From Cymodocea nodosa (Eukaryota; Streptophyta; Magnoliopsida; Alismatales; Cymodoceaceae): DNA of 64,000 bases. Below the pieces are notes generated by a model. It saw only the letters and a list, made by a program, of their open reading frames with translations. It was not told the origin of the DNA and searched no databases. Shown piece after piece: positions 17,520 to 55,341 of this stretch. The stretch is from contig JAZBRI010000008.1 in the NCBI GenBank assembly GCA_036874045.1, forward strand, positions 11,857,001 through 11,921,000, in the 5' to 3' direction. Positions within the stretch are counted from its first letter, which is position 1. Each line of letters opens with the position of its first letter. The position numbers and the translations under genes are program-made.

Positions 17520-17703
17520 AGTTAATAATCTTTGATATAAAATCGATACCAACTTATTTAATATCATTGCTTATTCTACCTTCTTTGTTTTTAAACAAAA
17601 ATTAATATCTGAGCATACGTTTAACTTTCTTGATTTTAGGCTCAAGTTGTTTTAAAGTTTTTAAACTGCTTAAAATCAAATAGGCTGAAAAATCTAAGGT
17701 AAG

Positions 17704-34530: not shown

Positions 34531-36332
34531 TGTAGGATCGTATGGCTACACAAGAGGGGGGTGAATTGTGTTTTTCAACATTTTCGATTATAATTGAAAC
34601 TTTAAAATTCAAAAACAAGTCGAAACACTGTTTTCATAAAATCATTTTTATTCAAGGTTTCAATTACAATATACAATTCAATTCTCCTCAAAAATTGTAG
34701 ATGCAATTATATATCGATACCATGTTTCATCTATACAATTTCATAACTATAAACAGAGAAAACTAATTTGCGGAATTTAAAACATTTCTCCCCGTTTGAG
34801 ATCTTTCTTCTTCTTCTTCTCTTTCTTCTTTAGCAATTCTTTAGTGACGAATATCTAGTCTTTCTCTACTTCACTGAATTTGCTTTCTTCTAATATTTTA
34901 AATCTTTAGTGACATAAATCTAACAGTTTCTACTTCACTGAATTTTCTTCCATTTGATACTTCAAATCTTTAGTGACATATATCTTACCTTTTTATGCTT
35001 CACTAAATTTTCTTCCACCTGAGAGCTTTCCCGGAAGAGATGTTTTTGATCCCTGAAAAGATTTTTCTTTTGGTATGCAGGGACAACTAATCAACGAGAA
35101 TTCTATGCCTTTTATACTATATCTTCATTTCATGCATATCCTCCAAGTTTAATCACTATCAGTCTTCCACTTCTTTACGTCTTTTCTTTTTCTTCATTGA
35201 AATACACACGTTCTGACCCACATTTACATTTCAAATTTTCTTTAATCATCAATCCTGGATCTTTAAAAAATTTCCTACAAAATAAACTTTCTCGTCTAAA
35301 ATTTTTCATCAAGTATAATAAGAAATCATTACTTTAATGTTAACTAAACGAGTAACACAAGTAGATATATAACTTAACATTTCTAACTTAACGAGTTCCT
35401 TATATGCCAACTCACGTGACAAGTACTATAGCTAACTCAAAAAACTAAGTCTGTGGTGTTACACTAACTCAACAAACCATCTCCGTTGTGTTACAGATAA
35501 CTCAACGAACCAGTAATAAACAAATGTTTTTATAATAAGAATTTTACCACGTGCAAAAATAACAACATAAGTTTTATAACGCTAACTGTTTAGAATGAAA
35601 AAGTGCATATTATTAACGGTTAAATGATGGTTAATTGCATAATATTTAGCTTATCATATGAGAATTAAGCCATTATATTATAATTGCACTATTATATGCT
35701 TTAATTAAAGAATCTGCTTAATTTTGGAGAATTAATGTCAATTTAGTACATTTCTGAACTATCGGTAAGTTGCTGGCTATGAAATTCTTAAGTATCGAAA
35801 TTTTCTGATATTTCGGACAGTTATGTTTAACATACCGAATATATTTTGGATAGTTATGTTTAACAGACCGAACATGTCAGATAGTTATGTTTAAATTGCC
35901 GAACAGTTATGCTTTAAAAGAATATTTTATTATTTCCAGAAGTACACGTGTCGAAACCATAATGCATGACTTAAGTGAACTTTCGGTGAGTTATCTATAA
36001 CTATCCGAAATTGCAGCTAGGCATCAGACAGTTAAATGTGTAACTCTCCAAAATCTCTTTTTATTTATAAAATAGCTATGGACACGTGTCATGTTCTGGT
36101 AAAGTGACTTAAGTGGATTTTCGATGAGTTATCTATAACTATCCGAAATGCATCTGAGCATCGGATAATTAAATTTATGCATGTGTTTTATAGTTAAATC
36201 AACGAAGTAAGTCCATTGAGTTATCTGTAACTCCACAAACTATTTATTTTCTAATATGCCACTATAGCGGTTGCAGAAACAGGACAGTTGGAAGAAAAAC
36301 CACAATTGCATGTATTGCGTAGGGAGAAGAAA

Positions 36333-36695
36333 TCATTGCCATTGATATGAATGAAGGAAATCCAACCGACCATTCAAGCAGAAGCAGTTACTACTGAAGA
36401 AATATAAAAGAAAAGAAGAAAAAGAAGAAAAGTGTGCATGTGTGATCGATGGACGGCTAGTGTGTACAGAGGAGGAGCACCGAGCTTTCTGCAGGCAGTA
36501 CCGGCAATTCTCCAAAGTACCACACCAACCATCGTTACCACCACCATATCCACCATAATCACCAACCATCGGAGGTCTGTAAAAATACTTTCTTGATGTC
36601 GGGTCGATTCCGAGCAAAACACGATGCTTGACAACCACTGTGAGGAGTGATCGCGTCACGGGAAGGGAAGCCATTTTCACCAAGCACCGACTCAT
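36333..36695 (-). other. Conserved antisense ORF inside GYP1 LTR
   Basis: A 120-codon ORF (MSRCLVKMASLPVTRSLLTV...) runs antisense to the LTR. Its first 50 residues recur in three other LTR copies: 50534 (minus), 11109 (plus, in an inverted LTR) and 12736 (plus, inverted). The run is rich in basic residues, then Gly/Tyr. It sits in the most GC-rich part of the LTR. I do not recognise the protein. It may simply be a conserved R-U5 structural region read backwards, or a fragment of a captured exon. Confidence 0.35.
36403..36410 (+). promoter_or_regulatory. Probable TATA box of GYP1 LTR
   Basis: AAATATAAAAGAAAAG is conserved at the same place in the 3' LTR (50245-50252) and in the end fragment near 63812. 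It is followed by a purine-rich run and the GC-rich leader-like block. Transcription start near 36435 is inferred. Confidence 0.6.
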
Positions 36696-37660
36696 ATTTC
36701 AGGATATCGTAAAGCTTCTAGCCTTGACTTCGGGTTGATGCCTGTATGCTAAAGAGGAGATTATCTTGCAATTCTGGACTCGCGATTCTATAGGGAGAGG
36801 AGATAGGATTGTAAGTGGTTTAATTTTCAATGGTGTAATCTTGTCGTATGTAGTGACGAAAGTATTTAATGTTGATTGAGATTACTTTACATTTCACCTT
36901 TCGCCCATTTCCATGTTCATATTAAACCAAAAATACCAAAAACAACTTATCTACTATTGTATGTTGTATTTGAGTGTTGTATTGTTTGTGTTGTATCGTG
37001 ATTAATGTTATCTTTTTCAGTGTTGTGATTGTTTTATGTTTGTTTCAGTTTTATAGTATACTAAAATTGATTCATTCAAAAGACTTAAAGATTTTAATGG
37101 TTACTGTTTGAATTATCTGAATGTTAGTATGCTTAATGAAAAATCTAGTATTTACTAACATTAAAGAGCTTAATTGATATTATTTACAATCTGTGTAATC
37201 GCCCAATGGTTGGCCAAATTCCTCTGTAAATAGCAGTATTAAAAAGGAAAGACAGGCTCGTAGAGTTAATTTAAGTCCATGAGGTTAGTCCGTTGAGTTA
37301 GCTATAACTTAACGAACTTTATCTATTGAGTTAACTGTAATTCAACGGAGAGCTTATTGAATATATAAATTTGATTGTTAACAAACGAATAGTTCTAAAC
37401 TATTAAGCAATTCCCTGTGGGATCGACCTGTACTTGCACACTAATACAATAGACACTGTGCACTTGTAGTTAAAGTACAAATTGGAATTAATATCTAAAT
37501 TGTATTAAAGGTGTTTGTTTACTTCTAAAAGAAAAAGAATAGGCATAAAGATAAATTAACTAAGTAAAAATAGAAGTAATAAATCCAGTTTTTCTAGTAC
37601 ATTATTGGAGATCTAATTAGATATTTTGGTGTCGTGTTAGGAAAAGACAAACAAGTTTTA

Positions 37661-37676
37661 TGGCACCGTTGCCGGC
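37661..37676 (+). promoter_or_regulatory. GYP1 primer binding site
   Basis: TGGCACCGTTGCCGGC, 7 bp after the LTR, matches the TGGCGCCGTTGCCGG site complementary to plant tRNA-Asp used by many Athila elements, with one G-to-A change. Confidence 0.9.
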
Positions 37677-37764
37677 GAATTGAATTGAATTAATATAAGC
37701 AACTGTTAGAGCTGCTTTGTTTTAATAGCCAAAGTGTTGTGTGTTTTCTTCTGTAATTGAGAAT

Positions 37765-38692
37765 ATGGCATATGCTTATGCTTAAAGATTTCTGAAACCT
37801 ATAATTAGCATATGTGAATTCTGCAATTTTGAAGGACATGACATTTCTGACTGTTTAAAACTGAGACGTTTACAGATGGTTAGATCCCATGAACAACAAA
37901 TGAATTATCCTCAATATAATAGAGCTGAGTATGAGAATCCTATAGTTTACCCAACTGATGGTCAGTATAGAATGTGTAATATGTTGAGAGACACGAAAGT
38001 TTGGGATAGGTATGACAGACTAGAGTGTAGTATAGAGCAAAACCTGGACAAACTAGAAGACTTTATGTGTCAGCAACAAGAAGTCAACCAATTAAACTAT
38101 AAGGAAGCATATTCAGAACCTAAATAGGATATAATTTACGAAACTGAAAAAACCATAATAAAAATTGAGCAAAAATTGAATGCAATGAAATTAGATGATC
38201 TGCAAAGAAAATTAAAAGCATTAGACGAATATACAATGAAAATACAAGTTATGCAATAGGACAATGAAAATTATAATGTTATAAACCTACATAATTTGTA
38301 AAATATACAACAAACAGAAAATTCTAATGCAATAGAATTTAAGAATGCACTTTAAAACTAAAAACAATTAAAGATCATAATTACGAAAATGATATACAAA
38401 AACATCATAAGAGTAATGAAAATCTGGAAGATGTTTGTGTAACATTAAGATCTGGAACTGATATACCACCAAGAACTCAAAATAAAAATGATATGAAGGT
38501 GGATAAGAGTAAAAATCAAAATGATAATGAAAATGTAATAGCTGAAAATCTAGAAATCACTAAAGAACAATCTGAATCTGCTAATGAAGCTAAAAATGAT
38601 CAAACAAATCAATTGAAAGAAAAAGAATCTTTTAAATCACAATCCTTAGCACCCTATCCTAAAAGATTACAACAAATGATACCTGAAAAATA
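37765..38692 (+). pseudogene. GYP1 gag C-terminus: zinc knuckle and linker
   Basis: Coding begins only about 90 bp after the priming site (ATG 37765). It immediately gives a complete zinc knuckle, CEFCNFEGHDISDC (C-x2-C-x4-H-x4-C, near 37818-37860), with no capsid domain ahead of it. A Tyr/Asn-rich segment (NRAEYENPIVYP), helical LDDLQRKLKALDE, then TLRSGTDIPP and PYPKRLQQMIPEK follow. These are the usual Athila lead-in to protease. Stops lie near 37783, 38125, 38258 and 38299, with a frameshift near 38340. The capsid domain normally found upstream is instead at 44988-46173. The nucleocapsid-like knuckle would bind RNA. Confidence 0.85.
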
Positions 38693-39943
38693 AGAAAAAA
38701 TCAGAGAAATTTTTGAAAAAGTACAAGTTAACATTCCTTTGTTAGATCTATTGCAGAAAATGTCACCTTGTGCTAAATTTCTAAAGGATTGGTGTACTAG
38801 GAAAAGAGAGCGAAAAGTTCTTAGAAATGTCTTTTTAGCTGAGCAAAGTAGTTCCCTATTTTTACCACAAATTACTAAAAAGTTATCTGATCTTGGAATC
38901 CCTGTTATATCATGCACCATAGGAAATACCATTCTAGAAAGAACATTAATAGACTTAGGTGCAGGTACAAATGTTATACCAAGTGATATATTTGCATCCT
39001 TAGGATTAGAAGGCTTAACTCCTACTAGTACGGTTATTCAATTAGCTAATAAAAGTATAAGATACCCTAGAGGAAAAATAGAGGATGTCTTAATTAAAAT
39101 CAAAAATTTTATATATCCTATTGATATTGTAATTTTGGATTCCCAACAAATTAAGCATAAAATAGTGATACATCTTTAATTTTGGGAAGGCCATTTTTAG
39201 CAGCATCAGGGGCTATTATAAATTGTAAATCTGGAGTAATGAAGTTAGCATATGGTAATGAGGATACTCAATTAAAGATTTTCAAACCAAAAAGGTTTGA
39301 GGAATTAGAAATGTCCTTACATACCATAGATTTTTTAGAGGATGAAGGAGATATGTTAAATGATGTGATTCAAGAAGAATTAAATAGGCAAATCAATTCT
39401 GAAACTTTAGAGGAAAGTGAAAGCATAAATAAAAAAGGCGATCAAGAAGAAATTAATTTAGAAAATGATGATGTTCAATTAGGAGCTCTAGCTTCTGATG
39501 GGCAACATTTAGAATTAAAACCTTTATCTCCTGAATTAACCTATATATTTCTGGAAGAGAAACGAACTTGTCCAATCATTATTGCTTCAAATTTAAAAGA
39601 GGATCAAATAGCTAAATTAAAAGATATAGTAAAAAGTTATAAAGAAGTAATAGGATGGACTATGACTGATATAAAAGGGTTAAGTTCTACTTTATGCTGT
39701 CACCACATATATTTAGAAGAGAATGCTAAACCTATTAGAATTCCTGAGAGGAGATTAAATCCAAACCTTAAAGAAATAGTTAGGAAGGAAATAGTGAAAT
39801 GGTTAGATAATGACATAATTTATCTGATTTCTGATAGCTCGTGGGTTAGCCAAATCCATGTAGTTCCCAAGAAATCAAGATTAACAGTTATTAAGAATGA
39901 AAGTCAAGACTTGATACCTACTAGAATTCAATCAGGCTAGAGA
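38693..39943 (+). pseudogene. GYP1 aspartic protease and lead-in to RT
   Basis: The conserved Athila lead-in KVQVNIPLLDLLQKMSPCAKFLKDWCT is followed by a retroviral-type aspartic protease. Its catalytic motif reads LIDLGAGTNVIPSDIF near 38950-38995, a D-L-G-A form typical of Athila. VQLANKSIRYPRG and IDIVILD follow. A frameshift near 39180 moves to the frame that continues through GRPFLAASGAIIN to a stop at 39938 (TAG, probably an old TGG) just inside RT. It would process the polyprotein. Confidence 0.9.
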
Positions 39944-41110
39944 ATATGTATAGACTATAGAAAGCTGAATGTTGTGACTAGGAAAGATCATTTTCCCTTA
40001 CCTTTTATAGATCAAATGCTGGAAAGATTAGTAGGGCAAGAATATTTTTGTTTCCTAGACGGGTATTCAGGTTATAATCAAATTCCAGTAGCATTAGAGG
40101 ATCAAGAGAAAACAACTTTCACTTGTCCTAATGGAACTTATGCTTTTAAGAGAATGCCATTCAGATTATGTAATGTACCAGCTACCTTTCAAAGGTGTAT
40201 GCAGGGCATATTTACTGGAATGACTGAAGATTTCTTAGAAATATTTATGGATGATTTTACTGTATATGGCAACTCATATGAAGTTTGTTTAAGCAATTTA
40301 TACCAAATATTAAAACGCTGTGTGGAAAAAAATCTGGTTTTAAATTGGGAAAAATGTCACTTCATGGTTAAACAAGGAATAATCTTAGGGCATGTTGTTT
40401 CTAAGAAAGGGTTGGAAGTAGATAAAGCTAAAATAGAAGTAATTTCTAATCTACCAAAACCTAAATCAGTAAAAGATATTAGATCATTTCTAGGACATGC
40501 TGGTTTTTATAGAAGATTTATTAAAGACTTTAGCAAGATAGCTAGACCTTTAACTAATCTATTAAAAGATGTTCCATTTAACTTTAATAAAAATTGCAAG
40601 GAAGCATTTTTCAGACTTAAGACTAGCTTAATTTCAACTCCTATAATTCAGGCACCTGATTGGAACCATCCATTTGAATTAATGTGCGATACATCTGATT
40701 TTGCTATAGGAGCAGTGTTGGGACAGAAGATAGAAAAATCTCCTAGAGTGATTCATTATGCAAGCAAAACCTTAAATGATGCTCAAGTTAATTACACAAC
40801 TACTGAAAAAGAATTATTAGCTATTGTGTTTGCCTTAGAAAATTTTAGATCATATCTGATTGGAGCTAAAGTGATAGTATACACGGATCATTCAGCTTTA
40901 AAACATCTAATAAAGAAAAAAAAGACTAAACCTAGATTGATCCGATGGATATTATTATTACAAGAATTTGATCTAGAAATTAAAGATAAAAAAGGTTGTA
41001 AGAATGTAGTAGCAAATCATTTATCAAGATTACAAATAGAAAAATCAAATATTGAAATTAAGGATAATTTTCTTGATGAACAATTAATGACCATCAACAC
41101 AATACCTTAG
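39944..41110 (+). pseudogene. GYP1 reverse transcriptase and RNase H
   Basis: Almost intact: one open frame of 378 codons from 39974 to 41110. RT motifs are [53 protein letters not shown] and the catalytic [10 protein letters not shown] (F-M-D-D) near 40243-40270. The thumb and connection include [15 protein letters not shown] and [15 protein letters not shown]. RNase H starts at about 40675 with Asp ([13 protein letters not shown]), Glu ([12 protein letters not shown]) and Asp ([12 protein letters not shown]), ending VVANHLSRL. All core catalytic residues are present, in contrast to the broken neighbours. The frame upstream is closed by the stop at 39938. Confidence 0.95.
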
Positions 41111-42258
41111 TATGCAGACATAGTTAATTACTTAGTTACTGGTCTAACACCTAAGGATTGGAATAGACAGGGCATTTTGGTTCAGGGAAAACTGTTGCAA
41201 AAATTCTGCAATGTGGGTTTTATTGGCCAACACTATTCAAAGATGCTCATAAATATTGCTTAAGTTGTTTAAGATGTCAACAAATAGGAAGAATATCAAA
41301 GAGGAATATGATGCCTCTTAATCCTATTATTGAGGTTGAAATCTTTGATGTGTGGGGAATAGATTTTATGGGTCCATTTCCTATGTCTAATCAATTTAAT
41401 TACATATTGTTGGGGGTGGATTATGTATCTAAATTTATAGAAGCTATTCTTGCAAAAACTAATGATAACAAAGTGGTAATACAATTTGTAAGAATAAATA
41501 TATTTGCCAAATTTGGAATACCTAAAGCTATTATCAGTGATAGAGGAACTCATTTCTGTAATAGAAGTTTTGAAACCTTAATGAAGAAATATGAAGTAAA
41601 TCACAAAATTGCAACATCATATCATCTAGAAACAAGTGGACAAGTAGAAAGTGCAAACAAACAAATTAAGTTAATCTTAGAAAAAGTAGTAAATCCTACT
41701 AGAACAGATTAAGCTAATAGATTGATAGATGCACTTTGGGCTTATAGAACTGCTTATAATACAAGCTTAAGTATATCACCTTTTAGGCTAGTATATGGAA
41801 AAAATTGTCATTTACCAATTGAAATTGAACATAAAGCTTATTGGGCATTAAAAACTCTGAACACTAATTTAAATCAAGCTGCTGAGAATAGAAAAATACA
41901 ATTGATTGAATTAGAAGAATTTAGGAATGAAGCTTATTCGAAAACTATAAGAGAAAAAAAGAAAATGAAGTTCTAGCAAGACAGGAAAATTATTCCAAAA
42001 ACCTTTGAAATAGGACAAGAAGTATATCTTTATATGGCTAGACTCCATAACCATCTAGGAAAATTAAGATCTAGATGGGCAGGACCTTACATAGTTTGAA
42101 ATATTTATCCTTATGGAGCTATTGAAATTGAAAATCCTAAAAATTAGAATATATTTAAAGTAAATGGACAAAGACTTAGACCTATTCTGAAAACACCAAA
42201 AAGCTCCTTTGGAATTATAAAAGAAGTCAGAGTGGAGGACTACTCGAGCTTTACTTAG
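41111..42258 (+). pseudogene. GYP1 integrase, N-terminal deletion
   Basis: After TAG 41108-41110 the sequence reads YADIVNYLVTGLTPKDWNRQ and then, near 41165, jumps to GSGKTVAKILQCGFYWPTLF. About 60-70 residues of the usual Athila integrase start, including part of the HHCC zinc domain, are missing. The CLSCLRCQ half of the zinc site is kept. The core domain follows: D in WGIDFMGPFP (41350), D in ISDRGTHF (41545) and E in GQVESANKQ (41645). The C-terminal region includes WAYRTAYNTSLSISPFRLVYGK. Stops lie at 41710 and 41974. The block ends near 42256-42258. Confidence 0.9.
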
Positions 42259-42534
42259 TAAGAAATCAGTTTTTATGTTTATATATAATAAATAAATAAA
42301 TATATTAAAAAATTATATATATATATATATATTTAAAATATAAAAATCATTGCAGTTCAACCGACTAGATCCATCGGTATGACCAGAACATAAAAAAATA
42401 TATGTATATTAATTTTCAAAAAAAAAAATTGTTGGTTTTACCGAAACATAGTATCGGTTAAATCGGTAAAAAAAAAACCAGAAAAACTATTATCTGTAGT
42501 ATTTTTATTATTATATCTATTTGTACAAGGAGTC
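42259..42534 (+). other. AT-rich spacer after GYP1 pol
   Basis: No gene. It holds an (AT)n microsatellite at about 42311-42331, A-runs near 42418 and 42469, and a short inverted pair with ACCGA/TCGGT near 42441-42466. Confidence 0.7.
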
Positions 42535-42627
42535 TATTGAGTTACAGTTAACTCAACGAGCTTACTCCGTTGAGTCTTGAGTTAGTCAACGTGCTTATTC
42601 TGTTGAGTTAACTGTAACTCAACAGAG
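42535..42627 (+). promoter_or_regulatory. Hairpin cluster 1 of GYP1, before the PF20167-like ORF
   Basis: Three inverted repeats: 42535-42560 (ATTGAGTTA / TTAACTCAAC), 42567-42591 (weaker) and 42600-42625 (CTGTTGAGTTA, 4-base loop, TAACTCAACAG; 11-bp perfect arms). Downstream at 42706-42720 is ATTTAAACTAAAAC, similar to the TATA-like leader of the COP1 extra ORF. A regulatory role is inferred from position only. Confidence 0.7.
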
Positions 42628-42893
42628 TACTGTAGCTAAGACCACGGATGAGATAGTAATAGTTGGTTCGGGAAATGACCCAATTACCCGCCTAAACTTA
42701 GGACTTATTTAAACTAAAACCTAGGATTTTGGGGGCATTATCTGGCAAATCATTTAGAATCAAGAACAGTAACAGAACAGATTGGTAGTCAGGAGGAAGA
42801 AGAAAGAGCAGAAAATGAAGAGGCTGAAAGAAGCCATTTCGACAAAAATAACTTTACAGATTCCACTGAAAGCAAGAAACTCTTCAGCAATTT

Positions 42894-43899
42894 ATGGAAA
42901 GAATTCAAGACAGAGTGGAGAGTTCTGCCGACTCACCGCCAAAGACAAAAACAGAAACAGAAATTCAGGAATCTGTAGAGAATGTTCAAATGTAACCTAT
43001 AGAAGAGGAATATCAAGAACAAACCCCTCAAGAACAGCAAAGTCACATTCTTGACCCGACTAAACCAATAGTTCTGAATGAAGTACATTTTTGGAGTCAG
43101 GAAGCTTATATCAAATACCAAGAGATTAGGGGTTATGATATCATTTATAGTAGACCAGTAAATTGGGATGGAATGCAAGAAATCAAAGATTTATTTGAGT
43201 TCCAAGGTCTACTGAAGTTCATTTCTCAAGAAAGAGGGCATGTAGTATATGAGAATTTAGTGCCCTGTTTTTATGTAAATTTAATAGAAGGAGAAGGAGG
43301 ATTAATTTCCAACGTGGAGGAAGCTAATGTACAAATAACACTAGAGCTTCTCCACAACATTTTTGGATTGAAGAATGGACTAAAATTTTGGAAGACACAA
43401 CTACTGTTGAATGGACTAAACAGGAAATCAAGGACAGTTTGGCTATCAATCCTGGTGTGCCTTTATTAAAAAAATTGAAGCATTTAAGTGGTAAAGCACA
43501 CATGGTATCTAACATTCAAATTAAAAATGTCTATCAACGATAGGGCCATGACATAGAATTTAGTCAATTTGTCAAATGGGCCACATATGCAATTGTAAAT
43601 AGGATTCAAATAAATTGGTCTGTAGTTTTTATCTCCAAGCTGAAAGCAATAAAGAAAGAATTGTTTTATGGAGATTTGATTCCACTGTTGATGGTGGATT
43701 GTATTGATTTCACGAAATGGACATCAAAAAGGATCAGATCAAGAACCATTTCAGTGAAAGAATACAGAAATTTTGTAGATGCAGAGATAGCTGCACCTTT
43801 TGGAGGCATAACAGGAGCTGTAGAAAGAATTAATCAATTAGAACTTCAATTAGAAAAACTCTATAAGGAAGTAGATGAACTTAGGAATAGAGATTAAAT
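42894..43899 (+). pseudogene. GYP1 PF20167-like ORF
   Basis: Putative start ATG 42894 (MERIQDRVESSADSPPK), a stop TAA near 42992, then SHILDPTKPIVLNEVHFW leading into the recognisable domain. That domain has IKDLFEFQGLLKFIS, VYENLVPCFYVNL and ITLELLHNIFGL, then a frameshift near 43370 and LSGKAHMVSNIQIKNVYQR, a stop at 43540, RIQINWSVVFISKL, LFYGDLIPLL and a C-terminal coiled coil (INQLELQLEKLYKEVDELRNRD) ending at 43897. It aligns by eye with the COP1 extra ORF (shared KDLFEFQGL, FY-NL, GLKN/GLEN, RIQINW, LFYGD). I associate the pattern with PF20167 from memory. Function unknown; no transposase catalytic triad is visible. Confidence 0.7.
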
Positions 43900-44336
43900 T
43901 GTATTGTTCATCTACTTGTATAATTGTATGAAAATGCATGATGTATTTGTAATGTATTCATATGAATGAATATAATTTTTCAGATGTGCTTTTCATACGT
44001 GTTTTGGATGTGAAATGAATGGAATTTATTGAATATTATATAATTTGTGGAACTTTATGAATGAATATGTAATAGATTTACAATTTGCTGAATGACAAGA
44101 TAAATGCTTAAAAATTTCTGCATGTTGTAAGGTAAAATGTAAATTCTGCATAATATAAAATGACCTACAAGTTAAATCTTTATATAATGTTCATATTTAA
44201 ATGAGTTTTGATTAGAATGATGCATTAATGACATAGATTTAACTTTATTTTAGTCAGTAGAATGAAAAAAAAAAGCAGAGAGGAATTTATGAGAGTAAAA
44301 CTTAGAGGTTGCCAAGTGTTAACTCAATGAAGTAAG
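43900..44336 (+). other. AT-rich spacer between GYP1 PF20167-like ORF and gag
   Basis: No ORF of note. AT-rich with repeated ATGAATG/TGTAAT wording. It leads into the second hairpin cluster. Confidence 0.6.
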
Positions 44337-44481
44337 TTCGTTGAGTTAACCATAACTCCACGAGATCAATAATATAATACAAGGTCACTCTGTTGAGTTA
44401 TCTGTAACTCAACGAACTTAGTCCGTGGAGTTAGCAACAGTAACCGACTATGCTCCGTTGAGTTATCTGTATCTCAACGAG
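44337..44481 (+). promoter_or_regulatory. Hairpin cluster 2 of GYP1, before capsid gag
   Basis: Three inverted repeats: 44337-44364 (CGTTGAGTTA / TAACTCCACG), 44389-44414 (GTTGAGTTA, TCTG, TAACTCAACG) and 44455-44480 (CCGTTGAGTTA / ATCTCAACG). A half-site CCGTGGAGTTA lies at 44423. Same motif as clusters 1 and 3 and as U5. Confidence 0.7.
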
Positions 44482-44558
44482 GTTAGTTCATGGATTAAGC
44501 AGAACGATTATTCTTTTAACCATGAATGAAACTTCGTCGGCTTAGCGGTTACTAAAAT

Positions 44559-44798
44559 TTGAAATTAATAGTAGTACACATACCCATAAAAACAGGAACC
44601 ACGATGTATGTTGCAAGACACGTTCTTGCAATGAGATTTATTCACTTTATGGATGTACATTATATATATAAATCAGAATGTTATTTACGAGTTACCAGCA
44701 CTTTTAAAAGAAAGGAGAATGCCTTGGAGGAATTGGAAGGCGAAGTAGCTGATTCGAATTCATCCGACAACAAATATTTACTAAATGGAAAGCTTTAG
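44559..44798 (+). other. Possible short ORF in gag leader
   Basis: A 79-codon ORF (ending EELEGEVADSNSSDNKYLLNGKL) between hairpin cluster 2 and gag. It contains a TATATATAAA stretch at about 44666. I do not recognise it; it may be chance or leader sequence. Confidence 0.2.
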
Positions 44799-44987
44799 AC
44801 TGGAATGTAATTAATCTTCTACTATTTATTTATGAGCACATGGACTTGTTCTCTAAGCGCTTAACGATTAGTAAGAACACCTACCTAGGAATTTTCATCA
44901 CAGAGGAGTACTAAAAAATTTTCTGAACTGAACTTTACCAAAATTCTTTGGGGTGTAGCTAACCTTTCTTTAAAAGAGAACGTAAAG

Positions 44988-46173
44988 ATGGCTGTTCTAG
45001 TAGAAAAACCATTAGGAGAAATTCTGTATCCTGAATTAGTTGATGAACCTTCATGTATTCGATTGCCAAACTTTGAGGGAGATAGGTTTGAACTGAAATC
45101 TAATTATATTAGTCAATTGCCACATTTTCATGGATTAGAAAGAGAGGATGCTTATTATTTCCTTAGAGAATTTAATGAAGTTTGTCAAATGATGAAAATG
45201 TCGAACATGAGTATAGGTGCTATTAAACTTAGATATATCCCTTTTCTTTAAAAGGCATAGCTAAGAGATGGTTATATACTCTATCGCCTGATTTAATTTC
45301 TACATGGACTGAATTTTGCTCTGTTTTCTGGAAAAATATTATCCAACACATCAAACGATTAAAAAGAAGAAGAAAATATTAATGTGAAGCCAAAAACAGG
45401 GTGAATCATTCTGGAAATATTTTGAAAGATTTAAAGATTTACTAACTCAATGTGTACATCATGCAATGAGTAAAGCACAATTAATAGGTATAATTTATGA
45501 AGGCATAGATGTTTCAACGAAATCTTTATTAGAATCTACTTGTCAAAATGGATTTTTAAAGTTATGTAGTGAAGAATTATGGGCATATTTAGAAAACTTT
45601 GCAAAAAGAACTACATAGTGGGAAAACTCGGTTGAAGCTATTGCAGATAAAAAAATATTGCCAAGAAGAATGCATGAAATAGATTCAAGTACTATACTTG
45701 ATGTGAAATTAAATGAATTAACAAAGAAAATAGAAGAGTTATCATTAAATCAAAAGCTAGCAGAAAAGAATGCAAACATAAATGATTTAGATATTATTTA
45801 TGCTAGAAACTAGAGAGATAACTTGGGAAATTCTTATAATCCTAATTGGAGAGATCACCCGAATTTATCTTGGAGAAACAACAATTTCTAGGGAGGAGAA
45901 AATGTAAATGAGAAGAATATAAGTTATGAAGCATTACTAGGATAAGGATCTAGAATAAAGAAATTAGAAAAGATAATCCAACAATTAAATAATCGTCTAG
46001 ATTTTGTATTTGGAAGTGCTGCAATTCAAAATCAGAATAGAAATATACCACTTAGACAGAAGGAACCAATGGAAGGTAGACCTACTAGAGGATTGCCAAT
46101 ACAAGCAATACCTAATCCTGTCAATAGAACTGTTAATGAAATTGAAACCTCTTCTGGGAGGATAGCTGAATAA
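44988..46173 (+). pseudogene. GYP1 gag capsid domain, located downstream of pol
   Basis: ATG 44988 opens an Athila-type Retrotrans_gag domain: IRLPNFEGDRFELKSNYI, FHGLEREDAYYFLREFNEVC, then a one-base frameshift near 45249, SLKGIAKRWLYTLSPD, STWTEF, then ESFWKYFERFKDLLTQC and SKAQLIGIIYEGI. Further on is the Athila hallmark NSYNPNWRDHPNLSWRNN near 45826-45880, then coiled-coil KKLEKIIQQLNNRL, ending IAE at 46171. Several stops interrupt it (45379, 45618, 45811, 45889, 45943). No zinc knuckle is present; that part is at 37818-37860 ahead of protease. In known Athila elements this domain precedes pol, so the order here is permuted. Confidence 0.85.
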
Positions 46174-46234
46174 AGCAGCATATCTAAAGTAACTATCTGT
46201 ATGTATATATGTTTTTATTTTTAGTTAATAATAT

Positions 46235-46295
46235 CGTAGAGTTAGTCCTTAACTCAACAAACTTAGTCCGTTGAGTTATTCCTTAACTCCACAAG
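46235..46295 (+). promoter_or_regulatory. Hairpin cluster 3 of GYP1, before the F-box-like ORF
   Basis: Two inverted repeats: 46235-46260 (GTAGAGTTA / TTAACTCAAC) and 46268-46295 (CCGTTGAGTTA / TTAACTCCAC). They are followed by a pyrimidine-rich tract ending TGTTATACAG at 46355, a good plant 3' splice-site match, 10 bp before the F-box-like ATG. Confidence 0.65.
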
Positions 46296-46364
46296 GGTGT
46301 GCAGTAGTTATGTTAATTTTTTTGTCTCTGCTAAATTTTTGTTTGTGTTATACAGAATCAACAA

Positions 46365-47504
46365 ATGGAATTGATGCAATTACTATTGGATGCACTAAGG
46401 GAAGTACTGAGTAACTTGTCAGCTAAAGATCTGTGCAGGCTGTGTTGTGTATCAAAGGAAATTAAAGACTGTATTGAAGAAAAATATTTTTAGGGAGTAC
46501 AAGCTGCAAAAATGACTAAGATTAGAGATGGATTCGTATGGAGGTCATTTAATCGTAGTTCAATTAATCATGAATATCTTGCTATGGAAGAAACTACTAG
46601 AATTCCACCCAATACATTAGAAGGAATAAATCATATTATGGGGATAGATGAAGGATTAATCATATACAGTATGAGACCAAGGTATGCAAGTTTATTATTA
46701 CTTGATATTCCGATAAGAAATCCTATAACAGGAGAAGAATGTAATATAGGAAGACCTAACAGATTTGAAGTACCAATTGTAAATTGTGGATCAGCTTTAA
46801 TATTTTCTAATAAAAATTTTGCAATTCCTGAAAAATTATATTATTGGAAACTTATAGGAAATTGGGGTGAAGATTTACGCTTAAGTGTGTATAATTTTCT
46901 GAATAGATCTTGGAATGAAAATATTATAATATATCTAGGACATAAATCATTAATTAACCAAACACATGTCATACTTGATTGATATATATATCTTGTCACA
47001 GATATATCAATTGCATTTGGATCTGATTTATACATAATGAGCATAGACAGTTATGATGAATATATAGAAATTTTACCTATACCGAGTGATATAGCTAAAC
47101 CACCATCTGTAGAATTTAATAAAATTCAAATAGGAATGTGGTATAATGAAGAAGATGATCCTACTTTATGTTTGATAAGATGGTGGAATGAATTGATGAA
47201 ATTTCAAATATGGATTATGGAAGACATTAATGAATGGAAGTGGGAAGAGGAATATATTGAAATAGATGTAGAAATAGAAACGGCTACATTACCCTGGAAC
47301 CAAAAAGGATCCCTTTCTGCATTTCATATCATTAATGGTAATACACTTGTATTTGGAATTTATAATATATTACACGTTTACAAATTAAGAAGGAACAAGA
47401 ACTGCATTAAAACAAAATTAATAGCAAGAAGAATTATGCCTAAAAAGTTTGCTTGGACTGATACATTTATTCTATCTGTTCCTACTTTTCAATCATGTTC
47501 TTAA
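46365..47504 (+). pseudogene. F-box protein-like ORF carried by GYP1
   Basis: One frame of 380 codons, ATG 46365 to stop 47502-47504, broken only by TAG 46491-46493 and TGA 46980-46982, with no frameshift. Residues about 5-40 resemble an F-box (LLLDALREVLSNLSAKDLCRLCCVSKEIKDCI), the motif that binds Skp1 in SCF ubiquitin ligases. The rest resembles an F-box-associated domain: FVWRSFNRSS, then VYNFLNRSWNENIIIYLG, SDLYIMSIDSYDEY, and LIRWWNELMKFQIWIMEDINEWKWEEE, matching the usual 'F-I-W-x-M ... W' pattern. Length is typical for plant F-box proteins. Capture from a host gene is inferred. It lies between capsid gag and the 3' noncoding module, has a splice-acceptor-like site just upstream, and is better preserved than gag beside it. 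A chance resemblance is unlikely but needs profile search. Confidence 0.75.
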
Positions 47505-49262
47505 GCTATGATTTTGTATGTTTAATGTTGTGTGTATTCTACGTTTACTTTTAGAAAAAAATATAGTTTTCATTTTATTTTATAAAAGAAAAAAAAAACA
47601 AAATATCAATCCAATTTGTTGGTATCTGTTCTAGGAAACCAACTGGCTTGCTTGTGAGCCACCAAAGGCATAGGAGCCTGGGTTCCACACAAGACACTGA
47701 ATTATCAATATCTGTTAAATGTTATTTTGTTATATATTTTTTACTTTTATCTGTGAATGAAAAGTTTTCAGAATCAAAAATCGAAATATGCAGAAGGAGA
47801 TACAAACAAAACAAGGTATGTAACTGATTACTTATCTTGAATTTTAATCAACAAAACTGTATTCATGCCTGCTACAATTACTGTATTTACTGCCAAATCT
47901 TTTACATTGAGGACAATGCAAAATGTAGGTATGGGGGGGAGGTAATTAAAGTAACAACCATGTAAGTTTGTTAATTAAAAAAAATTAAAATGGTACTACA
48001 AAGTTTTATGGAAATTGAAAATTTTTATGAACTTGCTATAACTATCCGTTAATTGAGACTGTAAAATTTATAATCTATAACTGCTTGAATGTTATATTTA
48101 GAAGGCTATATATGATGCTATAGAATTTACTATTTATGCAAATCTAGATATAGTATCTTATATTTTTTCTAAATTTCATGAGTTTAACAGTTTCATGATT
48201 TTAAAATGAAATCAGAATGATTAATGAAAAATTAGTAAATTATCTGAAGTCCTGAAGGAGCTGAGATGTGAATACTAGATTAAATGAAACACATATGATT
48301 AAAGATACATTTAATTTGACTGATTGAACTTGTAGAATGATTTATGTGTAGATCTTATTAAACTACATAAAAAGTATGAGCTCACTGTTATGGATTCATA
48401 TTTTCAGTAAATGATAGAAGCAGGACTATATGAGATTGGTGTTTTACTTCATCTATATTAATGAAATATGTACATATACAGTATGTGATTAATGTTTTGT
48501 TTTGTGTGTATTTTGATTAAAAAAAAAAAAAAAGGAAAAAAGAGAAAAATTTGAGAGTTTATTGACTTGTTTGATCACGAGCCTTTTGTACTTGAGTAGA
48601 TAGGTATGTAAGGATTGTTGCCCTGAAAAAAAAAAAAAAAAGACTCTTAAAATCTGGAAACCTAAGATCCTGATCAGATCTGGGATTGTTGATTGAAAGC
48701 TCGTTACATGGGTACATTAGAAAGCTCCTGTATGATTCAAGCTTGTCAAATTAACTTTTAAAGTACAAAAAAAAAAAAAAACATATACTGTTCTGAAAAG
48801 ATACAAGTGTTTTGTGAAATACAGATATCTTATGAATCGAGTATATTTTCTGTTATCTAGAATTACTGAAATATGAATCTGGAATTGACTTTGAAGTTGT
48901 TTTAATGGAGATACCATTCTTTATTCTACTTGTCTTAATCAAATTGAATTGGATTGTACTTTGATTTGTATGTTGTTGAAATTTCTTCTAGAAATCTTAT
49001 TGGAAAGTTCAGGATGACAGATGATGAAAAGAAGAACAAACGATAATATAATTAACACCTATGTGATGATGATATACTTCATATGTAATTTGCATATATT
49101 CTAAGTATATTTGCAAGTTGATTACTGAAACATACAGAATATATATTTTTATGCTGAACAGAAGAAAAAAAAAGAGAGGAATTAATTCTAGCACTTTTTG
49201 AAAAGCCAATTAATTAGATCTTAGTTTGCTAAGGGACTACCAAAATTTAGGTATGGGGGAAG
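47505..49262 (+). promoter_or_regulatory. GYP1 3' noncoding module and polypurine tract
   Basis: No genes. Near 47905-47942 is the sequence ATTGAGGACAATGC ... GGTATGGGGGGGAGG, a wording typical of Athila/Tat 3' regions. From about 48060 to 49200 the DNA resembles the COP1 post-pol spacer (23290-24300), with interspersed A-runs (48521, 48627, 48766). The terminal tract GGTATGGGGGAAG at 49250-49262 abuts the 3' LTR and is the likely plus-strand primer. Confidence 0.75.
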
Positions 49263-51493
49263 TGTTTAGAATGAAAAAGTGCATATTATTAACGATTAAA
49301 TGATGGTTAATTGCATAATATTTAGCTTATCATATGAGAATTAAGCCATTAAGTTATAATTGCACTATTATATGCTTTAATTAAAGAATCTGCTTAATTT
49401 TGGGGAATTAATGTCAATTTAGTATATTTCTGAACTGTCGGTAAGTTGCAGGCTATGAAATTCTTAAGTATCCGAATTTTCTGATATTTTAGATAGTTAT
49501 GTTTAACATATCGAACATATTTTAAACAGTTATATTTAATTGACTGAACATGTCAAATAGTTATATTTAAATTACCGAACAGTTATGCTTTAAAAGAATA
49601 TTTTATTATTTCCAAAAGTACACGTGTTGAAACCATAACGCATGACTTAAGTGAACTTTCGATGAGTTATCTATAACTATCTGAAATTGCAGCTGGGCAT
49701 CAGATAGTTATATGTGTAACTCTTCGAAATCTCTTTTTATTTATAAAATAGCTATGGACATGTGTCATGTTCTGGTAAAGTGACTTAAGTGGATTTTCGG
49801 TAAGTTATCTATAACTATCCGAAATGCATCTGAGCATCGGATGGTTAGACCTGTAACTCTCCGAAATATGTATTTTATTATTAAACTACTGTTGACACGT
49901 GTCGAGATCTGGTAGATTTACTTAAGTTATATATTGATGAGTTATTTGTAGCTATCCGAAATGCATCTGAGCATCGGATAGTTAAGTTTGTAAGTATCTG
50001 AAATGCACCTGAACATCGGATAGTTAAATTTATGCATGTGTTTTATAGTTAAATCAACGAGGTAAGTCCGTTGAGTTATCTATAACTCCACAGACTATTT
50101 ATTTTCTAATATGCCACCGTAGCAGTTGTAGAAACAGGACAGTTGGAAGAAAAACCACGATTGCATGTATTGCGTAGGGAGAAGAAATCATCGTCGTTGA
50201 TATGAATGAAGGAAATCAAGTAGAAGTAGTTACTACTAAAGAAATATAAAAGAAAAGAAGAAAAAGAAGAAAAGTGTGTGTGTGTGATCGATGGACGACC
50301 AGTGTGTACAGAGGAGCATCGAGCTTTCTGCAGGCAGTATCGGCAATTCTCCAAAGTACCACACCAACCATCGTTACCACCACCATAACCACCATAATCA
50401 CTAACCATCAGAGGTCTGTGAGAATACTTTCTTGATGTCGGGTCGATTCCGAGCAAAACACGGTGCTTGACAACCATTGTGAGGAGTGACCGCGTCGCGG
50501 GAAAGGAAGCCATTTTCACTAAGCGCCGACTCATATTTCAAGAGATCGTAAAGCTTCTAACCTTGACTTCGGGTTGATGCCTGTATGTTGAAAAGGAGAT
50601 TATCTTGCAATTTTGGACTCGTGATTCTATAGGGAGACGAGATAGGATTGTAAGTGGTTTAATTTTCAATGGTGTAATCGCGTCGTATGTAGTGACAGAA
50701 GTATTTACTGTTGATTGAGATTACTTTACATTTCACCTTTCGCCCATTTCCATGTTCATAATAAACCAAAAATACCAAAAACAACTTATCTACTATTGTA
50801 TGTTGTATTTGAGTGTTGTATTGTTTGTGTTGTATCGTGATTAATGTTATCTTTGTCAGTGTTGTGATTGTTTTATGTTTGTTTTAGTTTTACAGTTTAC
50901 TGAAATTGGTTCGTTCAAAAGACTTAAAGATTTTAATGGTTACTGTTTGAATTATCTGAATGTTAGTATGCTTAATGACAAATCTAGTGTTTACTAACAT
51001 TAAAGAGCTTAATTGATGTTATTTACAATTTGTGGAATCGCCCAATGGTTGGTCGAATTCCCATGTAAATAGCAGTATTAAAAAGAAAAGACAGGCTCGT
51101 GGAGTTAACTTAAGTCCACGAGGTTAGTCCATTGAGTTAGCTATAACTCAACAAACTTTATCCGTTGAGTTAACTGTAATTCAGTGGAGAGCTTATTGAA
51201 TATATAAATTTGATTGTTAACAAACAGATAGTTCTAAACTCTTAAGCAATTCCCTATGGGATCGACCTGTACTTGCACACTGATACAATAGACACTGTGC
51301 ACTTGCAGTTAAAGTACAAATTGCTATTAATATCTAAATTATATTAAAGGTTGTTTGTTTACTTCTAAAAGAAAAAGAATAGGCATAAAGATAAATTAAC
51401 TAAGTAAAAACAAAAGTAACAAATCCAGTTTTTCTAGTACGTTATTGGAGATCTAATCAGATATTCTAGTGTCGTGCTAGGAAAAGACAAGCA
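49263..51493 (+). mobile_element. GYP1 3' LTR
   Basis: 2,231 bp, from TGTTTAGAATG to GACAAGCA, followed by the duplicated target ctaac. It is about 160 bp longer than the 5' LTR, mainly because it has an extra tandem unit in U3 (units near 49619, 49756 and 49896, each with CACGTG or ACATGTG and TATCCGAAA arms). The antisense ORF is at 50106-50534. Confidence 0.94.
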
Positions 51494-52053
51494 CTAACCT
51501 AACGCGTTGCCTTAGTGTTCAATATAGCAACTCAACACGTTTAGTTATGTTAACTTAACGAGTTAAACATATGCACCTCACGTGATACAATATAACATTC
51601 GTAACTTATAATTTCACCACGTGTACAACCTTAACCTAACGAATTCGTCTCTTCTTTTACTCACTAACTTAACGAGTTCTCACGTGACCTATTTTAACCT
51701 TTAAGTCTCTAACTTAATGAGTTCTCACATGACCTCCATACGAACAAAACTCTAACTTAACGAGTTATCTAAACATGCACTGTTCATGATACAGAAGATA
51801 TAACTTTAAAAACATATCATGCTTTTCAATAAAAACACACATTGACTTAACATTTAGTTAAATGAGAAATTAATGCAATGAAACAACTAGTTATTAACTT
51901 AGTATAATTTCAAATCCAATACAGACACGTATTTATATGAGTAAGCTTTTTCTGTATTAATTAATGTATTTAATTTCCTTTCACAAGCAATAGTAATTGA
52001 GCAAATATGTTTATTTTCATTCAGCACACATCATCAAAACAAAATACTCAACA

Positions 52054-52583
52054 ATCTCCCCCTTTTTGATGATGACAAAACCATATTAAATCAATTATGA
52101 AATATATTTAACTCAACAAAACACCTTCGTTGGGTTAACTTTTAATTCAACAAACAAGTTTGTTAACTTAAGTTCACTTAAGCTTATTTCTATTATTTGT
52201 GTAAATTTCACCTTTTAGAAATAAAACTTCCAGATGTCAATAATTACATAAGTATCATTTCTCCCCCTTTCATTATATAATTTAATAATCATATAATTTT
52301 CTTTCAGATTACATTATCATCTGTTAGATTACAATAACCATATAAATATCATCTCCCTTTATAATATATGTAATTGAAATCATAATCATCTTCTTTTATA
52401 ACATTTCTCTCCCTTTTTATCATTAATCAAAAAAAATGATTACATAGTATATATAGTAAGAGACATATTTACAACAACGCTTTCTGTAAACAATAATAAG
52501 AATTGTAAACATTTACAGAAAAAATGTATTGTTCAATGAATGCAAACATTACATTTTATATTCAAATACAAGCAAATAAACAG
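52054..52583 (-). promoter_or_regulatory. COP1 3' region with polypurine tracts (minus strand)
   Basis: The minus-strand counterpart of 27042-27583: the terminal tract is at 52054-52067, next to the LTR, and inner purine tracts lie near 52260 and 52405 (read as CTCCCCCTTT and CTCTCCCTTT on plus). No gene. Confidence 0.75.
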
Positions 52584-54859
52584 TTATCTATTCCTCCTAA
52601 GTATATCACTTATAGCATTACAAATTTTATCTCCTAGATGCCTAATATCATTTCTGATTTCGTTAAGCACATCATCTAGGTTAGGAGGTATCTAGGGTTG
52701 CTATTTTGCTTGAACTAAATAACTTGGCTGTTGTGGTCGAATCTATTCTGTACAATCTGTTGGTTGTTGTTGTTGTTGTTGTTGTTGAGGTTGATGCAAT
52801 GCTTGGAATTTTTGCAAATCTTTTACACTAAAAGCTCTCATGCCTTTAGTTTCAGAGGGTCAATCAGATAAATTCAATTGGCTTGCAAGGAGTCTACATG
52901 CAACATCACCATAAAATAACTTTGAACTCATATGCTGTAGTTGAGAAGTAAAAACTTGAAACCAATTGATTTGAATTCTATTCAGCAAACCATAAGTAGC
53001 ATATAAACAACTTCTACTGACTTCCATATTGTGTCTGACTCTCTGAAATAAATTGGCATGCAATATATTTGTAATAAATCTTGCCTTTGCATTCAGATTT
53101 TCCATTAATCTCATTTCAGTATATACATCTGGAATTTTTGATAAAGACTGAATGTTCCATTCCAGTTGTCTAATCATGTCAAATCTATTTGTAACAACAA
53201 CACCTTCATTCTTTAATCCCAAAACTTCAAAAATTAATTCAGGAGACAATATTATTAACTCTTGTTTATTTATTTTAATTTTCAGTATATTTTCATTCTT
53301 GACTAGATTGCTATAAAAAGCTACAATAAGCTCTTTGTACTGCTTCCATTTGTTCCAACTAGCAAGAATTGAATGAGGCCTTGATACTCAAATAGATCTC
53401 TCATATTAATCAAATTTCTGAATTTTATTGGTGGAGCATGTAGAATCTGACATGTAATTAGATTATTGTATTTCTGCACTACTTCCTTATATCTAAAATG
53501 AATTGAATTACCTTGAATTTGTAATACTGTACACAAAGAAGGTGATACCTGAAGCCATGATTTAGAGTTTAATTCATCTTCAGGAACTTCTTCTTCAAAA
53601 TGAATGTCATTTTGTTCCTCTATGAAAATATTTTCTTGAAGCTACGTATGTACACTTGATTCTTCAACTTAAACAGTGTAAGGAACATCTTCATTATGCT
53701 CTACATTCATCTATTCAGTCTCTATAGAATGATCAGAATTCAATTTTTCCACAAATTCTACAACCGGTGTATCTGTCTGTATTTATTCATTTTGTTCAAC
53801 AGATATTTCCATTGATACATGCTATGAATTCTCATACTCTGCTTCTATAGATTCTGAAGAAGGCTGGTTGACATTTAGCTCTTCTAGAGTTTTAACTTTT
53901 TCAATATCCACTACTCTAGACAATTCAGCTTGTGAACTAATTACTGCCTCAACATTGTCAATTATATCTGCAATAACTTATTCAATGTCATGTGCCTAAT
54001 GCTCTAATTTTTCAATTTCTGCATCATCAGGACTTGTACTAATAGAAAAACTTGAGCTCATATTTGACTTGGATTTCTTCTCAAGTTTTCTAGCAAGGGA
54101 AAATAAAGTCTCATTATCTTCATTAGTTTCAGTATGCTCAAAACTGATGAGTTTATCAAATGCACTATAAGGTACAATGTCTAGACATACATTGTCCTTT
54201 GGAAATAAATGCTCATCGGATTTTTCTTTTCCATTAGACTTTGTTTCCTTAGACATAATTTTTCTGATTTTTCTTCTTCCATAACACTTTTTTTCTCCTC
54301 TTCAAGTATTACTGTTTTCTTTTCAAATTGCTTCATAAAAGTTTTCTGGTTTAATTCTTCTAAAGCACTTTCTATTGCAACTGCCTTTCGAAGACCTTCA
54401 ACTTTTCTTTTATCTACAGCAATATTTGATTCTACTTCTTTTGAATACAAAGGAGTAGGTATAGCAGATTCATGTTCTTCCTTAAATGCATGTAGTCGTG
54501 TACCACTCAAAGAAGTTTGAGGAATTCAATTTGATGAACCTACACCTTTTTCCATATATTTTGCATACTATTCGAGAAATGCAATTTTTGCACATTTCAT
54601 TCTATATTCTCTATCATATTTACTTTGAATACCCATGTATTTAATATTTGCATCAGTATTTTGAAGCTCTTGTCTAACTTCATCTAATATACCTTGAGGA
54701 AAGTAGTATTCACTGTAAATTTGTGCTAACCTTTTGTCCACTAGAAGTATTTTCTTGAACCAAGTGCGTGGAACTTCATCAGTATCTTTCTTTTGCTTTT
54801 CCATCTCCTCTACTTTTGTCTTTTCCTCTACCATGACCTTTGTAGAACTTGGAGACCAT
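52584..54859 (-). pseudogene. COP1 extra ORF, second copy
   Basis: Minus-strand ATG at 54859 (MVSKFYKGHG) to the stop at 52584. The order of parts matches 24779-27041: basic N-terminus, WFKKILLVDKRLAQIYSEYYFPQG, acidic/Ser-rich middle (MSSSFSISTSPDDAEIEK), then MRDLFEYQGLIQFLLVG, LSPELIFEVLGLKNEGVVVTNRFDMIRQLEW, ATYGLLNRIQINWFQVF, LFYGDVACRLLASQLNLSD and a poly-Gln stretch (GTT repeats near 52761-52790). The C-terminal 129-codon run 53249-52860 is open. Several stops and frameshifts occur elsewhere. Comparing it with the first copy would show whether the protein was under selection. Confidence 0.72.
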
Positions 54860-55341
54860 CGTCGCAGGTTGTAACAGCAACAAGCGGGAAAGATTTTTCT
54901 TTTTGACAAAGTTTACGAATAACCTAAGTGCTTGTGTAATAAGTGTTTAAATAGGGTTTTAGGCAAATAACACAACGTGTATAGAAGTCAGGTTTAGATT
55001 TTAAATGAATATTGAATAAAGTTTATTCAATCAAGGTACTCGAAATATTCAAGTATAACTCGTTGAGTTAACTAACCTAACGAGTAAAACGCTGTCTAAA
55101 GGCAATTTTACATGTTACCTTATATAATATAACGTTCAGTTAATACAATTTACTAAAATCAAGTTTTGGATGCTTCCTTCCGAAGACAACACGTATATGC
55201 TACACTTAACATTATCTTGAGAGCATTGTAAACTATTCTAACATTCTCTTCTTATGAATCTAAAATAGTTTGTTTGTCTTTTAAATTGTTTCATCAAGAT
55301 CTTAAGGGATCTAAATTTAGATTAACCAAGATTTTGTATTC
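54860..55341 (-). promoter_or_regulatory. COP1 leader of the extra ORF (minus strand)
   Basis: It contains the TATA-like TTTAAATA at 54946-54953 and the hairpin at 55059-55084 (CTCGTTGAGTTA / TAACCTAACGAG), at the same spacing as in the plus-strand copy. It ends at tattc (55337-55341), the target-site duplication of the nested COP1 insertion. Confidence 0.7.

Follow-up and report, generated by a model that had tools for sequence, protein, structure and literature searches.

Gag stands behind integrase in GYP1, a high-copy Ty3/gypsy-type retrotransposon family of Cymodocea nodosa

Long terminal repeat (LTR) retrotransposons and retroviruses share a common plan, in which Gag precedes Pol and is made in excess of the Gag-Pol fusion. 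GYP1, a Ty3/gypsy-type element of the seagrass Cymodocea nodosa, carries its capsid gene behind integrase, and the locus raises the question of whether this order belongs to one damaged copy or to a lineage, and how such a lineage would make its Gag. The element lies in a 64,000-nucleotide stretch of DNA (C8:11857001-11921000; hereafter, the window) of an assembly of 374.6 Mb in 28 contigs, and all results below come from this one genome. GYP1 as a whole spans positions 35587-51493. It has the features of an LTR retrotransposon: a pair of LTRs with TG..CA termini, a primer binding site (PBS), a polypurine tract, a 5-bp target site duplication (TSD), and the series protease (PR), reverse transcriptase (RT), RNase H (RH) and integrase (INT). 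Its order is LTR-PBS-zinc knuckle-PR-RT-RH-INT-PF20167-related open reading frame (ORF)-capsid ORF-F-box ORF-LTR, with the following parts:

35582 to 35586, no strand: 5' copy of the TSD, CTAAC, read from the sequence
35587 to 37653, plus strand: 5' LTR, by LTR comparison
37661 to 37678, plus strand: PBS TGGCACCGTTGCCGGCGA, which is TGGCGCCGTTGCCGGGGA in some other copies
37765 to 38693, plus strand: start of the 5' ORF (MAYAYA..) with a CCHC zinc knuckle at 37816-37857 and an LRSG linker, in the PR frame
38694 to 39300, plus strand: protease PF13650 (Pfam, 5.3e-5, exactly at the cut-off)
39941 to 41110, plus strand: RT and RNase H (PF00078, 2e-25; PF17917, 7e-37)
41167 to 42257, plus strand: integrase and its C-terminal part (PF17921; PF00665, 1e-12)
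42721 to 43897, plus strand: PF20167-related (Transposase_32-like) ORF, by similarity to other ORFs of the window
44991 to 46173, plus strand: capsid (gag) cistron without a zinc knuckle (PF03732)
46365 to 47504, plus strand: F-box ORF (PF00646)
49250 to 49262, plus strand: polypurine tract ahead of the 3' LTR
49263 to 51493, plus strand: 3' LTR
51494 to 51498, no strand: 3' copy of the TSD, CTAAC, read from the sequence

The original prediction, made from the letters of the window, held that coding starts with a zinc knuckle and goes straight into protease. This is what we found: the ATG at 37765 lies 111 bases 3' of the LTR end, and the first knuckle cysteine is codon 18, in the PR frame. 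Because only 111 bases separate the LTR end from the ATG, there is no room for a capsid ahead of the 5' ORF, and a capsid concealed in the 5' leader was ruled out. The capsid domain had been placed about 2.7 kb past integrase, between a PF20167-like and an F-box-like ORF. The distance holds (the capsid cistron begins 2.7 kb past the end of the integrase ORF), as do the capsid (Retrotrans_gag PF03732 in 45388-45618, 1.9e-6) and the F-box (PF00646 at 46365-46490, 2.5e-9, 37.1 bits versus a gathering score of 20.5). The PF20167 label is indirect: in Pfam, ORF 42996-43897 has no PF20167 match of its own; its tblastn matches are other ORFs of the window (1e-14), and one of those reaches PF20167 at 2.9e-4 with 21.2 bits, far below the curated score of 45.

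The claim that the 15.9-kb arrangement moved as one unit agrees with the LTRs, PBS, polypurine tract and CTAAC duplication, and with an empty site: the flanks (34929-35586 and 51494-52051) align to 6616-7829 as a single stretch. We read the host site as a copia-type LTR, of which 6616-7829 would be the uninterrupted paralogue. Kimura two-parameter distances between the GYP1 LTRs were 0.069 (1499 aligned bases) and 0.068 (580 aligned bases), so that GYP1 did not insert recently, and its frames have decayed; those of the 5' ORF and of the PF20167-related, capsid and F-box ORFs are all broken by stops or frameshifts.

The same order recurred in other copies. The capsid piece has at least 40 scored matches in the genome including itself, the others being 94-96% identical, and we compared GYP1 segments by Blast with ranks 2 to 11, the best 10 of the 39 other matches. 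Integrase lay upstream of capsid in 8/10 copies (L009, L011, L013, L015, L017, L019, L021 and L025), in L011 as a fragment only; of the remaining two, L023 has RT without INT, and in L027 the PF20167-related block is the first GYP1 segment matched in the stretch examined. The 5' end is readable in six copies, and in all of them the knuckle unit directly follows the PBS leader (the other four are truncated or interrupted earlier), and protease follows the knuckle unit in five, being deleted in L025. An ATG of its own opens the 5' ORF in 6/6 copies, and the CCHC motif is intact in 4/6 readable ones; codon 7 encodes Q in five of the copies with a readable start and is a stop in the remaining two, GYP1 and L015. 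The F-box stands 3' of capsid in 9/10 copies (interrupted in L012) and is missing from L020. Five copies with both LTR ends readable have TSDs of their own, four perfect (ATGCC, TGTCA, AATGG, TTATG) and one matching at 4/5 positions. LTR distances of four copy pairs were 0.036-0.075; a value of 0.675 for L013/L014 was discarded, the 3' LTR being truncated. The permuted arrangement is present on several other contigs, and because independent copies have the same structure, chance is excluded. A capsid ahead of protease, a counter-case named with the original prediction, was found in 0/10 fetched copies, gag-first elements not having been searched for exhaustively.

Genome-wide counts point the same way. 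With up to 1 mismatch allowed, a 24-base signature marking the start of the knuckle ORF has 3383 occurrences and one placed just ahead of the capsid ATG has 3222, and reversed-pattern controls for both gave 0. Spacing was measured on the first 100 exact places of each signature, all on contig C1, whose common interval of 11 Mb holds 85 knuckle and 99 capsid starts. Capsid lay within 12 kb downstream of the knuckle in 30 same-strand pairs. Of these, 21 have a spacing of 7.0-9.5 kb, where 0.98 would be expected, and 17 of the 21 one of 8.2-8.8 kb. Only three capsid starts lay upstream on the same strand (-3.1, -4.4 and -6.6 kb), a canonical gag start being expected, by our estimate, about 1-2 kb upstream of the knuckle; 9 pairs were on opposite strands. 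No exact capsid signature stands 5-12 kb downstream of 57/85 knuckle starts, which decay and nesting would explain.

Gag behind integrase is wider than the original prediction had it, being common to four other families of this genome. A distant plant gag (P0123) found 103 places, of which the best 10 were cut out; integrase lay upstream of gag in 10/10. Their four knuckle types are taken as four families (L035, L036/L038, L037 and L039-L044). Nine of the ten gags contain a CCHC motif (L041 does not), and the two that were tested matched PF03732 at 1e-19. The stretches ahead of protease were read for six places, and the RT region between stretch and gag locus for only one of them. A knuckle preceded protease in all six, two of them having two knuckles, and a PBS was recognised in two, 206 and 152 bases before the knuckle. 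One family has tandem knuckles at the start of its 5' ORF (L050:1125-1253, L051:1176-1304), the others read having a single one. Integrase before gag and a knuckle before protease are thus found in other families too. The stretch upstream of L037 is a copia element. Behind the L037 gag, this second family also carries an F-box ORF, which has 28-41% identity with the GYP1 one and matches PF00646 with 25.8 bits, above the cut-off. A coffee gag (P0124) found 126 matches in the genome.

In an RT tree of 57 rows, built without a named Athila reference or a Tat outgroup, GYP1 and the L040/L045 family formed one clade (Shimodaira-Hasegawa-like approximate likelihood ratio test, SH-aLRT, 92), and the ENA protein P0074 joined them next (82); L045 itself sits on a long branch. 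Public RTs were up to 74% identical among the best 120 of 8000 hits, the named ones coming from plants, and an RT scan of viral contigs gave no relative.

In the GYP1 family, capsid is split from the knuckle: the former is a 3' cistron, the latter belongs to the 5' ORF, and PF20167-related and F-box cistrons are added. A CCHC motif sought in the capsid cistron was absent from 10/10 fetched copies, so that knuckle loss in the GYP1 copy alone was ruled out; the predicted separation of capsid and nucleocapsid into different reading units fits the family, as far as its sequences indicate. The end point of the capsid ORF is common to 8/10 copies. An ORF of up to 84 codons precedes the capsid cistron (44541-44990) and is open at that length in 5/11 rows. 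The capsid piece gave one 72-aa hit among 4 candidates in a protein database and its C-terminal piece 3 hits of 624 candidates; a PDB search with the N-terminal part gave no match. The F-box ORF of another copy has a weak FBA_1 match, below the cut-off, and the longer one of L010 matches PF00646 with 15.9 bits, also below.

Near the start of the PF20167-related ORF, at about 42756, GYP1 is without a stretch that encodes an acidic extension in other copies and is about 1.15 kb long in most of them, 760 bp in L025 and about 3.8 kb in L019. At L009:6390-7542 this extension contains the motifs FVDLISEEEEEE and FINLLSDS, which resemble the SUMO-interaction type. PF20167-related ORFs 28-38% identical to that of GYP1 also stand, apparently between pol and the 3' LTR, in copia-type elements of the window (15937-29163 and 51494-57279), which we read as SIRE-like, that is, as Sireviruses.

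Candidate signals by which the 3' cistrons could be expressed were found in the LTR and in the spacers:

36808 to 36829, plus strand: candidate splice donor ATT/GTAAGT in the LTR, its site at 36811, by conservation over 14 LTR rows
42536 to 42623, plus strand: three palindromic boxes, of GTTGAGTTA-N-TAACTCAAC type, ahead of the PF20167-related cistron
44340 to 44478, plus strand: three palindromic boxes ahead of the capsid cistron
46236 to 46292, plus strand: two palindromic boxes ahead of the F-box cistron
46340 to 46359, plus strand: candidate splice acceptor TTATACAG/AATC, its site at 46355, nine bases ahead of the F-box ATG

Among the 1082 windows of 36500-37600, the 20-nt donor window comes first; it is identical in 14/14 LTR rows, although the two LTRs of an element do not count as independent rows. 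The F-box acceptor window is the best conserved of its spacer, first of 172. Whereas 20 first-order shuffles gave 0.55 palindromic boxes on average, GYP1 contains 19: 10 are in the LTRs, 3, 3 and 2 precede the three 3' cistrons, and one is inside the capsid ORF. Other copies of the family have the same box clusters.

The permuted order and its recurrence in independent insertions are observed. We consider it probable that they are best explained by an Athila-like sub-lineage with this order that makes gag from subgenomic messages. GYP1 would represent a sub-lineage of Ty3/gypsy, very abundant here, that has spread as LTR-PBS-[knuckle-PR-RT-RH-INT]-gag-LTR. Its genomic RNA would serve as message for the knuckle-Pol polyprotein only, and Gag and the other 3' proteins would come from subgenomic messages. 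The most likely route is splicing from the conserved LTR donor to acceptors before each 3' cistron; internal promoters marked by the palindromic boxes would be a close rival route. Capsid would then be supplied independently of Pol, and the RNA-binding knuckle of GYP1 would enter the particle with Pol, not with capsid.

Several observations weigh against this explanation. The GYP1 lineage is known here from genome sequence alone, and what is known of the candidate splice signals is their conservation; ahead of capsid, conservation is the same in several windows and singles out no acceptor. A stop or a frameshift interrupts the capsid ORF in 10/10 fetched copies, and just 2/9 rows have an F-box ORF that is open throughout. 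Ratios of nonsynonymous to synonymous variants (N/S) were calculated over 6-11 rows per unit, a shared variant being one present in two or more rows. Shared-variant N/S indicated weak constraint in capsid (0.64) and F-box (0.62), and shared stop variants amounted to 7/39 in the knuckle unit, 7/58 in capsid and 7/100 in the PF20167-related ORF. Comparison with two places of a sister subfamily (L046 and L048, one F-box pair being L046 versus L048) gave unequal codon positions at P < 0.05 in 3/5 pairs for the F-box (P = 0.31, 7.5e-4, 0.039, 0.71 and 0.0041) and in 1/4 for capsid (P = 0.13, 0.16, 0.0091 and 0.063). The subfamily dN/dS values, 0.29-0.48 for the F-box and 0.32-0.39 for capsid, overlap those of the controls (non-coding, 0.34-1.83; wrong frames, 0.44-0.81).

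Elsewhere in the element, shared-variant N/S was 0.34 in the knuckle unit, 0.18 in PR, 0.33 in RT-RH, 0.43 in INT and 0.30 in the PF20167-related ORF, whereas four non-coding segments had 0.97, 0.80, 0.71 and 0.72. Variants confined to one row gave 0.60-1.06 in coding and 0.59-1.19 in non-coding units; shared stop variants were 1/10 in PR, 1/47 in RT-RH, 4/41 in INT and 0/72 in the F-box. Judged from these variants, selection is visible on the 5' ORF and the PF20167-related ORF and is only suggested, within the family, on capsid and F-box. The cross-family homology of the F-box ORFs speaks for longer maintenance. An AlphaFold model of the F-box ORF had a mean pLDDT (predicted local distance difference test) of 31.6 and was left unused.

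Among other explanations, the one that survives best, although we regard it as unlikely, is that GYP1 is trans-complemented and partly non-autonomous, its particles being built from the complete gag of siblings such as L040 and its own capsid and F-box being tolerated passengers. Sibling families whose gag holds both capsid and knuckle do exist, and the capsid cistron of GYP1 is knuckle-free and broken in all ten copies and weakly constrained. However, capsid starts are about as numerous as 5' ORF starts, the capsid end is shared by eight copies, and codon positions differ unequally from the sister subfamily in one of the four pairs; moreover, trans-complementation leaves gag behind pol in the sibling families unexplained. 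It is far less probable that gag is expressed first, from a circular or tandem template that sets the 3' gag before pol and yields a conventional Gag-Pol polyprotein. Splice-like signals are present, and the L040 gag ends in the motif VETTSGEK, which we take to resemble the usual gag-pol joint, but gag begins and ends with codons of its own, the 5' ORF likewise starts from a separate ATG, and normal splicing cannot reverse exon order on one linear RNA. An assembly error, a nested insertion or a one-off chimaera has a negligible chance of being right: the window is a dense nest of elements whose repeats invite mis-assembly, but the order recurs on several contigs in copies that inserted independently, five of them flanked by separate TSDs, so that the error or nested junction feared in the original prediction is rejected at the family level, and integrase precedes gag in other families as well.

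Under the subgenomic-message explanation, the order likely arose in three steps. Gag would have been duplicated or shifted behind integrase; the 5' gag copy would then have lost its capsid part and kept the knuckle fused to protease; and in GYP1 the 3' gag would later have lost its knuckle. P0 of poleroviruses is an F-box protein that directs host silencing factors to degradation. A fuller proposal, to which we give slightly less than even chances, is that the sub-lineage has inverted its expression logic, with genomic RNA for knuckle-Pol and Gag as a late subgenomic cistron, that one branch has a capsid without nucleocapsid and a knuckle with Pol, and that the added F-box cistron could send host silencing factors to degradation.

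Two polypurine tracts lie between the F-box ORF and the 3' LTR of GYP1, and a shared segment stands between them:

47905 to 47943, plus strand: upstream polypurine-like tract, 3' of a ATTGAGGACAATGC motif
48283 to 49113, plus strand: non-coding segment, 70-75% like the copia-type 3' region of the window

Counterparts of this segment, 70-75% identical, occur in the copia-type elements of the window at 23549-24117, 30820-31605 and 60839-61643, and windows within 48551-48586 are fully conserved across 9 rows of the GYP1 family. Its occurrence in two superfamilies suggests an exchange or a common cis function. A second GYP1-type relic (13798-15936, minus strand) has the same knuckle ORF, 81.5% identical over 37913-38441, joined directly to an LTR start and interrupted by other insertions. 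An Rfam search of the window gave no match.

If our explanation is true, a high-copy Pol-first lineage would mean that the Gag-before-Pol plan is not obligatory. An RNA-binding piece at the front and a shell-protein gene behind the enzymes suggest that these elements make their parts differently, and with capsid and nucleocapsid as separate genes, the Gag-to-Pol ratio and RNA packaging become testable. The F-box cistron suggests a tie to host protein degradation.

Among known systems, GYP1 is closest to the Athila clade (Diaspora, Calypso and Athila4), with which it shares plant Ty3/gypsy-type RT and INT, a tRNA-Asp-type PBS, gag homology, an aspartic protease and large LTRs. The PBS is TGGCGCCGTTGCCGGGGA in L013 and L021, letters that we take to be those of a tRNA-Asp PBS; L009 and L015 have close variants of it. 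Both Diaspora and Calypso are primed by tRNA-Asp, and Diaspora, which follows the standard Athila plan, encodes gag core-CCHC-PR-RT-INT in a single 1892-codon ORF (PMC1142308). Our clade name is based on gag and PBS, and we keep to Athila-like. Unlike these elements, GYP1 has gag as its own cistron behind INT, a 5' knuckle that is joined straight to PR, and a gag without a knuckle. Where Athila elements read GAG-PROT-RT-RH-INT, we found knuckle-PROT-RT-RH-INT-GAG. One CCHC array in gag is given as the rule (PMC2577118); here, GYP1 gag has none, and the other families have CCHC in gag (9/10) and another before PR (6/6). GYP1 is Athila-like in parts and deviates in two defining features, gene order and gag make-up.

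Athila elements can carry additional ORFs (env-like, PF20167) 3' of gag-pol, and a sense PF20167-like ORF is reported from sunflower Athila 14 (PMC11728184). GYP1 also has a PF20167-like ORF; unlike those, it is one of three 3' cistrons, beside capsid and F-box, and its own Pfam match is not significant. The reference plant survey classed 8453 elements as Ty3/gypsy with GAG-PROT-RT-RH-INT, GAG being unidentified in 159; it took an unexpected order or a repeated domain for a likely misprediction and discarded the elements concerned without exception (PMC6317226). Comparable lineages may exist elsewhere undetected because such elements were dropped. In the titles and abstract openings of the open-licence PMC literature, we found no description of gag behind pol in plant Ty3/gypsy elements.

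Parallels for the proposed expression come from further afield. Foamy viruses make Gag and Pol from separate messages, Pol from a spliced one, with gag first; separate messages are also proposed for GYP1, but reversed, with Gag from the spliced message and Pol first. For barley Bagy2, spliced env messages are reported (PMC7264820). Sireviruses (Ty1/copia) have palindromic repeated boxes in the LTR and ahead of the 3' gene ENV, which are taken as support for an internal promoter (PMC2829016). The placing in GYP1 is the same; unlike GYP1, Sireviruses have the copia order with gag first, and their boxes are described with a CGG-CCG core, which by eye is seen in some LTR boxes of GYP1 only.

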